Below are positions 1,121 to 24,111 of a stretch of DNA of 64,000 nucleotides, in pieces. Source of the DNA: Candidatus Peregrinibacteria bacterium Gr01-1014_25. Its GTDB lineage: Bacteria; Patescibacteriota; Gracilibacteria; Peribacterales; Peribacteraceae. The position numbers were made by a program, and so were the translations under genes. The notes under the pieces were generated by a model that saw nothing but the letters and a program-made list of their open reading frames with translations, did no database searches and was not told the DNA's origin. Each line of letters begins with the position of its first letter. Within the stretch, counting starts at the first letter, position 1. The stretch covers positions 30,661-94,660 of the forward strand of contig VMFU01000001.1 of the NCBI GenBank assembly GCA_007376205.1, given 5' to 3'.

Positions 1121-1480
1121 ATGTCCTACGTTGTTGCTTCCAAGGTCAAGGAATACGTGAACGGCAAAAACATGATGGCCGCCGGCGACCTCGCCGACCA
1201 TTTGAGCAAGCAGGTCGAGATGTGGTTGGCTCAAGGCCTCAAGGCCGCTCAAGCCAACGACCGCAAGACGGTCCGCGGCTGCGACATTCTCGTCTTCTCC
1301 CCGGGCAAGACGCCGTTCGTTGTCGCCTCGAAGATCAAGGAATACGTGAACGGCAAAAACATGATGGCCTCCGGCGACCTCGCCGACTACGCGAGCGGCC
1401 TGGTCGAATGGCTCCTCTCGATGGCCTGCGACCGCTGCAAGTCCAACGACCGCAAGACGGTCCGCGGCGGCGACCTTTGA
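1121..1480 (+). CDS. Bacterial histone-fold doublet (two fused histone folds, tail-less)
   Basis: 119 aa with two copies of VVASK(V/I)KEYVNGKNMMA(A/S)GDLAD...NDRKTVRGxD(I/L), matching the archaeal/Bdellovibrio-type histone fold (helix1-GDxxxxL helix2-RKTVRxxD). Confidence 0.85.
   Translation: MSYVVASKVKEYVNGKNMMAAGDLADHLSKQVEMWLAQGLKAAQANDRKTVRGCDILVFSPGKTPFVVASKIKEYVNGKNMMASGDLADYASGLVEWLLSMACDRCKSNDRKTVRGGDL
1146..1470 (+). repeat. Direct repeat at 189-nt offset inside the histone doublet gene
   Basis: 35 nt identical (1146-1180 vs 1335-1369), then 1 mismatch and 17 identical nt; 26 nt CCAACGACCGCAAGACGGTCCGCGGC identical at 1254 and 1443. Confidence 0.9.
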
Positions 1481-22914: not shown

Positions 22915-24111
22915 ATGAAAACGATATTGCTGATCAGTCCGTACTGGCGCGAGCCGCATCGTTGGATGGTGAGTTCCGTGAAGCTGGCGGAGCTATGGCA
23001 GCGGCTGGGATTCCGGATAGTGGTGGGATGCATGGGGGGGACGGGCGGGCAGCGGGCAGCGGGCAGCGGGAAGAGGACGTCGGTTGAGGACGTGTCGCCG
23101 ACGCTCCGCATCTACCGCATGCGGGATCGGTTTCTGCCCGATCCGCTCAATTTCGGGATCGCCCTGGGATTCGCGCGCATGGCGCGGCGCATCATACGCA
23201 TCGAGCGACCGGACATGGTCGTCATCAACAAAGTCCTGTTCTGGACATCGTTCAGCATCATCCCCCTCCGACTGCGGGGGCATCGCGTCGTCGTGCTCAC
23301 GGACGCGCTCGTCGGCATGACGTGGCAGCCGCGGGGATGGCCCGCGCGCATCATCATGACGGCGGGGGCGTGGACCGTCGGATGGCTGGTACTGCTCTGC
23401 GCGCACCGCGTCGTTTTCTTCCACCCGCAACCACCCCGGCTCCTCCGGTTTCTCGGCATCGCGCACAAATGCGAGGTGATTCCGACGGGGATCGATCCTT
23501 CCGGCTATGGGCTATTGGCTATGGGCTCCGAGCAAAGAAAGTCTCACAGCTCACAGCTCACAGCTCACAGCTCAATTGTCGTCACCTACATCGGCCGCCT
23601 CGAATCGGTAAAGGGCGTCGACGATTTTCTGGCGGCTGCCGTAGAGGCGAAACGGCATCACCCACAGATCACCATCCGCGTCGTCGGGTGGTATAAGGAA
23701 GGACATCCGCTCGTCGCGCGGTACGCCGATCGAGTGACGTTCACCGGGCTGCGCGATGACATTCCCACATTGCTTGCGGAGTCGGACATCTTCGTGCTGC
23801 CGAGCTACAGCGAAGGATTGAGCAACGCTCTCATGGAGGCGATGGCCAGCGGCTGCGCGTGCGTCGCGAGCGACGTCGGCGGCAATCGCTTCCTCATCGA
23901 GAACGACGTGTCGGGCCTGCTCTTCCCCGCGGGCGACCGCGCGGCGCTCGCCGCCCACCTCCGGCGCCTCGCGGACGATCCTGTGAAGCGCATCGCCCTG
24001 GGCGCGGCGGCCCGCAGGAGAATTGAGGACCATTTTTCATGGGACATGGTAGGAAAACTCTACAAGCGTCTAATCGACCAAGTTCTGCGCGAGGAAGGAA
24101 CTACCGCGTGA
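22915..24111 (+). CDS. GT4 family glycosyltransferase with two heptamer-repeat-encoded insertions
   Basis: VTYIGRLESVKGVDDFLAAA, DIFVLPSYSEGLSNALMEAMASGCACVASDVGGN. Confidence 0.9.
   Translation: MKTILLISPYWREPHRWMVSSVKLAELWQRLGFRIVVGCMGGTGGQRAAGSGKRTSVEDVSPTLRIYRMRDRFLPDPLNFGIALGFARMARRIIRIERPDMVVINKVLFWTSFSIIPLRLRGHRVVVLTDALVGMTWQPRGWPARIIMTAGAWTVGWLVLLCAHRVVFFHPQPPRLLRFLGIAHKCEVIPTGIDPSGYGLLAMGSEQRKSHSSQLTAHSSIVVTYIGRLESVKGVDDFLAAAVEAKRHHPQITIRVVGWYKEGHPLVARYADRVTFTGLRDDIPTLLAESDIFVLPSYSEGLSNALMEAMASGCACVASDVGGNRFLIENDVSGLLFPAGDRAALAAHLRRLADDPVKRIALGAAARRRIEDHFSWDMVGKLYKRLIDQVLREEGTTA
23047..23074 (+). repeat. Heptameric repeat (GGGCAGC)3 in GT4 CDS
   Basis: gggcagc gggcagc gggcagc gggaaga, encodes GQRAAGSGK. 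Confidence 0.8.
23504..23580 (+). repeat. Heptameric repeat element in the same GT4 CDS, related to the ugd element
   Basis: gctatgg gctattg gctatgg gctccga ... acagctc x4; encodes YGLLAMGSEQRKSHSSQLTAHSS. Confidence 0.85.

Follow-up and report, generated by a model that had tools for sequence, protein, structure and literature searches.

How obligate histone heterodimers, on the way toward H2A-H2B and H3-H4, arose from symmetric homodimers is still to be explained; one proposed intermediate step is the doublet (PMC13088155). The locus described here raises this question in a bacterium. Within the window, a 64,000-nucleotide stretch of contig VMFU01000001.1 from Candidatus Peregrinibacteria bacterium Gr01-1014_25, one gene encodes two histone halves whose DNA is near-identical at both ends and strongly diverged in the central helix. 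The initial annotation attributed this pattern either to a recent duplication followed by rapid divergence of helix 2, through specialisation of the dimer or tetramer interface, or to gene conversion confined to the DNA-contacting ends. The features of the locus, in window positions, are as follows.

1060-1088, + strand: sigma-70-like promoter, TTGCCT-17-TAGAAT (promoter scan, 1 found against 0.2 expected)
1089-1120, + strand: pyrimidine-rich leader without a Shine-Dalgarno sequence, conserved in the family
1121-1480, + strand: doublet histone gene, 119 aa (reading frame from ATG to TGA; homologues share the start residue)
1127-1288, + strand: first histone fold, N half, residues 3-56 (AlphaFold model)
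1146-1198, + strand: 5' shared tract of the N half, covering alpha1, loop 1 and the start of alpha2 (pairs with 1335-1387)
1160-1162 and 1349-1351, + strand: N14 and N77 codons (alignment)
1190-1255, + strand: helix 2 of the N half, residues 24-45 (AlphaFold model, alignment)
1254-1279, + strand: 3' shared tract of the N half, loop 2, NDRKTVRG (identical to 1443-1468)
1289-1315, + strand: linker, residues 57-65, LVFSPGKTP (alignments)
1316-1477, + strand: second histone fold, C half, residues 66-119 (AlphaFold model)
1335-1387, + strand: 5' shared tract of the C half (repeat comparison)
1379-1444, + strand: helix 2 of the C half, residues 87-108 (AlphaFold model, alignment)
1443-1468, + strand: 3' shared tract of the C half (repeat comparison)
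1497-1535, + strand: terminator-like inverted repeat 3' of the stop, a stem followed by TGTTTGT (repeat search)
1588-2976, + strand: UDP-glucose/GDP-mannose dehydrogenase family gene, UGD (Pfam)

The doublet gene is present as a single copy in its 1.12-Mb genome (G000). Its start at 1121 is backed by the relatives, nearly all of which begin MSYVVAS, and its stop codon lies at 1478-1480. When 49 histone genes of the family, singlets and doublets included, were compared, nearly all proved to have the promoter (CTTGC, then TAGAAT or TACAAT) on their 5' side, and nearly all of these upstream regions also have a pyrimidine-rich leader of ~25-30 nt up to the ATG. Together with a strong codon bias, this conserved promoter suggests that the gene is highly expressed. 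The inverted repeat at 1497-1535 was missed by the terminator scan.

Searches of the protein against Pfam and NCBIfam gave histone matches only below threshold. For the single chain, AlphaFold returned a confident intramolecular pseudodimer (mean pLDDT 94.3, pTM 0.86), with helices at residues 6-14 and 24-45 and a one-turn alpha3 at 53-55 in the N half, and corresponding elements at 69-77, 87-108 and 116-118 in the C half. DSSP assigned alpha3 helix in this predicted model only at 53-55 and 116-118, as in the alpha3-truncated class of histones. With Foldseek, the whole chain matched the MkaH doublet of M. kandleri (1F1E, TM 0.68) as well as linked H2A-H2B, and each half matched HLp of Leptospira (TMt 0.93, 39% identity); by sequence, the closest solved relatives are HLp (9QT0, E 9e-7) and HBb/Bd0055. 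The RxTxxxxD loop-2 motif is present in both halves (R48-T50-D55 and R111-T113-D118) and is invariant in the doublets, and the alpha1 DNA lysines are present as K8, K10, K71 and K73. On the strength of this fold and these residues, both loop1-loop2 edges would grip DNA. A linker of about nine residues and complementary helices, which would fit pairing within or between molecules, might instead let each half pair with the half of another chain, giving a domain-swapped polymer that bridges DNA. We consider this arrangement quite improbable, given the confident single-chain prediction of the intramolecular pair and the internal pairing of the known doublets 1F1E and 1WWI.

The doublet was compared with four kinds of described histones. 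With the face-to-face (FtF) alpha3 histones (HLp of Leptospira perolatii, 9QT0; HTkC, 9F2C) it shares the truncated alpha3, the RxTxxxxD motif and the A-S-K and K10 DNA contacts, and their R42/N46/R48 signature is found in the singlet relatives and in the doublet C half. FtF histones are, however, torus-shaped homotetramers of single folds, whereas here two folds are fused; the R/N pair of the class (profile R48/N52), which FtF histones have in every fold, is kept in the C half (R105/N109) and broken in the N half (A42/N46), which thus lacks the tetramer arginine. The HBb/Bd0055 dimer histone (8CMP, 8FVX) has the same alpha3 truncation, RKT..D loop, S-K motif and per-half length, but it is a homodimer from a group without the R48/N52 pair that the doublet C half and the singlet relatives have. 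The DUF1931 pseudodimers (1WWI of T. thermophilus, 1R4V of A. aeolicus) are likewise bacterial double folds in one chain, yet they are without DNA-binding residues (PMC12701072) and 1WWI has 148 residues against 119; the doublet has no Pfam match of this kind and carries DNA-contact residues in both halves. Archaeal MkaH (1F1E) and HstA of Halobacteria are DNA-binding doublets with internal pairing, as is predicted here, and MkaH ranks with the best fold matches over the whole chain, but both are of nucleosomal type with a full alpha3 and are archaeal, with an origin separate from that of the alpha3-truncated bacterial doublet. By analogy, the protein may function as MkaH-like doublets do, with alpha3 halves as its building blocks. 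Hocher et al. (PMC10627809) noted size classes of bacterial histones that correspond to singlets and doublets. In the literature searched, which did not extend to supplementary tables where they may be listed, we found no description of Peribacteria histones or of DNA-binding alpha3 doublets; the present gene would add DNA-binding doublets to a bacterial repertoire in which the doublets described in that literature, the DUF1931 pseudodimers, lack such residues.

Histone matches were found in 68 of the 74 genomes of the GTDB family, and three of these carry the doublet (G000, G029 and G001). The other 65 matches cover about one half only and are singlets of ~56 aa where read out. A fourth orthologous doublet lies on the public contig JACRJW010000068.1 (locus L062, G353), and with orthologous doublets in four genomes or contigs an assembly artefact is unlikely. 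Linker residues L57, F59 and P61 are common to all four. The JACRJW010000068.1 contig belongs to a MAG labelled Uhrbacteria, whose L14 region is far from Peribacteria, so that its Peribacteria-type doublet points to a misbinned contig or to transfer. A Peribacteria-type singlet on NYYK01000002.1 (L083), a contig labelled Euryarchaeota archaeon, probably reflects a mislabelled MAG; the named relatives are mostly Candidatus Peribacteria or Peregrinibacteria MAGs. Genome contigs gave no match with the single protein as query and gave matches with the alignment as query, and an IMG/VR scan found no viral relatives of the doublet histone. One other doublet was found, in a genome of a different family of the same class (G039; 118 aa, locus L111, 9765-10118), and further doublets were not found in the sampled class and phylum.

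The age of the duplication was read from a tree of all halves and 38 singlets. The N halves of the four genomes make up a clade (100/99), and so do the C halves (100/99). Together these eight halves form a larger group (98/94), which adjoins the singlets of G028 and G035 (100/98). The halves therefore sort by position across four genomes, and the duplication is old. A recent duplication in the G000 genome with rapid divergence of helix 2, to which the near-identical end DNA might point, is refuted by these separate clades and has next to no probability: the position-specific helix 2 and linker are also present in G029, G001 and G353, and the helix-2 DNA tree groups by position, rejecting the two G000 halves as sisters (p-AU 0.0001). 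UGD follows the histone gene at each of the four doublet loci and also downstream of the sister singlets of G028 and G035, and this synteny, taken together with the halves tree, makes a single in-place fusion the simplest origin of the doublet. The UGD gene of the window has a peculiarity of its own: tandem arrays of the heptamer GCTCACA lie at 2163-2196 and 23541-23574 and at several genome sites (17 overlapping pattern matches), one of them inside the UGD reading frame, and the predicted UGD is 462 aa long against 432-441 in relatives.

The distribution of the doublet does not follow the genomes that carry it. On a tree of ribosomal-protein regions (G000 L112, G001 L114, G029 L113, G028 L136, G035 L137), G029 is sister to the singlet genome G028 (100/99), and a single clade of doublet genomes is rejected (p-AU 1.5e-21). 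Since the doublet genomes are not monophyletic, the doublet must have undergone either ancient transfer or reversion. We lean to transfer, because reversion would have had to take many helix-2 residues back to the singlet state.

Direct comparison of the two halves bore out the described pattern exactly: 1146-1198 and 1335-1387 differ at 1 of 53 nt at a constant spacing of 189, 1254-1279 matches 1443-1468 at every one of 26 nt, and the 55 nt between the shared tracts hold 34 mismatches. Under genome codon usage the two tracts would average 10.5 and 6.1 mismatches, and none of 20,000 draws reached the observed values (P printed as 0.00000). Shuffling the gene's own codons lowers the expectation to 6.0 and 1.6, with P=0.0014 for the first tract and 0.10 for the second, both tracts having been picked after the fact. 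Scan-type statistics, which are independent of the chosen tract limits, were also used. Of the 32 comparable codons in the G000 halves, 5 differ synonymously where the own-gene shuffle predicts 9.4 (P=0.009), their longest run without synonymous change is 17 codons (P=0.003), and their longest run of nucleotide identity has P=0.019, although the shuffle alone already predicts a 23-nt run. By hand estimate, a 17-codon run would arise in ~9% of random placements of 5 synonymous mismatches in 32 codons; because clustering along the gene is thus not significant by itself, we do not claim a sharp tract border. Codon usage for G353 taken from the ribosomal contig of its MAG was judged invalid on account of the Uhrbacteria label and the distant L14 region, and own-gene shuffles were used instead. 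Much of the resemblance between the halves is thus due to protein constraint and strong codon bias, with an excess that is real but modest.

Protein constraint at the ends is a property of the whole family. For pairs of the 38 singlets, protein identity over the ends is 0.74, compared with 0.57 over helix 2. Similar ends are thus usual in this family, and the 0.69-0.83 identity between the ends of doublet halves falls inside the singlet range. End protein sequences show no pairing by gene (rank 4/24), which argues that family-wide constraint is the main reason why the ends look alike. It is a real possibility, if the lesser one, that constraint and a narrow set of preferred codons explain everything and that no conversion occurred: the end positions are conserved in all singlets, the protein ends are unpaired by gene, a 23-nt run is expected from codon shuffling, and in three of the four doublets the excess over orthologues falls short of significance when codon composition is controlled (G001, P=0.12; G353, P=0.37; G029, P=0.40). 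The DNA of G000 argues against this reading. There, the within-gene identity excess over orthologues persists under the same control (P=0.0034), alongside the synonymous-identity run; the end DNA tree places the two G000 halves together (94/95), with an N clade rejected (p-AU 0.007), in discord with the helix-2 tree; and the GTG13 and AAA16 codons, both inside the 5' shared tract, occur nowhere in the gene but at corresponding sites of its two halves. The conversion tests draw on 102 nt of end DNA, which is little data. We consider it likely that the ends were homogenised in the G000 lineage by short conversion events across the direct repeat of 189 bp. The proposal of conversion at the ends therefore holds up for G000 only; conversion in all doublets is unsupported, the codon-controlled test being significant in one of four genes.

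The proposed specialisation of helix 2 is supported. Helix-2 identity within a gene is 0.17-0.33, against 0.67-0.78 among N halves, 0.44-0.67 among C halves and 0.57 between singlets; the fraction of pairs of the 38 singlets with values as low is 0.000 for G000, G353 and G001. This divergence is position-specific, is shared by four genomes and exceeds that of nearly all singlet pairs. Columns 3, 28, 30, 31, 34, 35, 39, 42, 44 and 56 have no residue common to N and C halves; helix 2 is marked by L28, K30, M34, W35, G39, A42 and Q44 in the N half and by W97, L98, A102, R105 and K107 in the C half (half positions 34, 35, 39, 42 and 44). Mapping of HLp contacts (offset 7, anchored at the RD clamp, R55 = R48; PMC12701072) places three dimer-core positions (28, 35 and 56) and two tetramer positions (42 and 56) among the position-specific columns, so that the diverged positions include contacts of both interfaces, with N/C differences of W35/L35 and A42/R42. 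None of nine mapped DNA contacts and 4 of 12 interface residues (28, 35, 42 and 56) are position-specific, a contrast that is not significant alone (Fisher P=0.10). R42, N46 and R48 are invariant in 38/38 singlets and match the HLp tetramer residues R49, N53 and R55 (PMC12701072).

The N half could merely have decayed, with the face-to-face tetramer contact unused and no complementary pairing gained. A39, R42, G47 and L56, all invariant in the 38 singlets, are replaced in N halves by G39, A42, D47 and I/M/V56, whereas C halves keep A39, R42 and L56. We think decay unlikely: across the four genomes, helix 2 of the N half is well preserved, at the 0.67-0.78 given above, and W35, K30 and G39 were gained in all four N halves, which looks like selection.

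We hold it to be fairly probable that a DNA-binding, alpha3-type, face-to-face-like histone doublet has here evolved into an obligate pseudo-heterodimer. A single-fold histone would have been duplicated in tandem and fused in frame at its own locus, and its two folds, pairing by the predicted histone handshake, would have formed a ready-made pseudo-heterodimer. Selection would keep the DNA-contact residues alike in both halves, while helix 2, which forms the core of the dimer and the contacts of the face-to-face tetramer, would be freed from self-symmetry and could diverge. The N half would thereby have come to carry its aromatic residue at position 35 along with G39, and the C half its own at position 34 along with A39, with contacts among positions 34, 35 and 39 across the helices that we infer by mapping, and with the tetramer R42 only in C. 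Such a protein would be a natural example of a symmetric histone pair becoming an obligate unequal pair, with DNA-gripping ends alike and pairing helices different. As doublet and singlet sisters occupy the same locus in related bacteria, this step can be retraced from existing sequences.

More speculatively, the N half may have lost part of its face-to-face contact set, so that doublets would join mainly C-to-C and form no symmetric ring. The C half alone has a free C terminus and alone keeps the tetramer arginine, a coincidence that is suggestive. That fusion thereby turned a closed homotetramer of a face-to-face histone into a one-sided C-to-C assembly of pseudo-heterodimers is a tentative proposal, which we rate as rather unlikely; if true, bacteria would have a counterpart of the H3-H3' contact found in the eukaryotic tetramer, and the second fusion, in G039, offers a comparison. 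The halves of that doublet group with each other (100/99), so it arose independently. Its AlphaFold model is similarly confident (mean pLDDT 92.8, pTM 0.85), and in it, too, helix 2 has diverged more than the protein ends, which are alike; both halves have W at position 34 and keep R42. Loss of R42 is therefore not a necessary result of fusion.

One DNA contact differs from that of most singlets. All four doublets carry asparagine at position 14 of each half, as do the sister singlets of G028 and G035, whereas K14, a DNA-contact lysine in HLp, is present in 36/38 singlets; this replacement may have altered DNA binding. HU is also encoded in G000 and in 67 of the 74 family genomes, and the histone is therefore one nucleoid protein of G000 among others.
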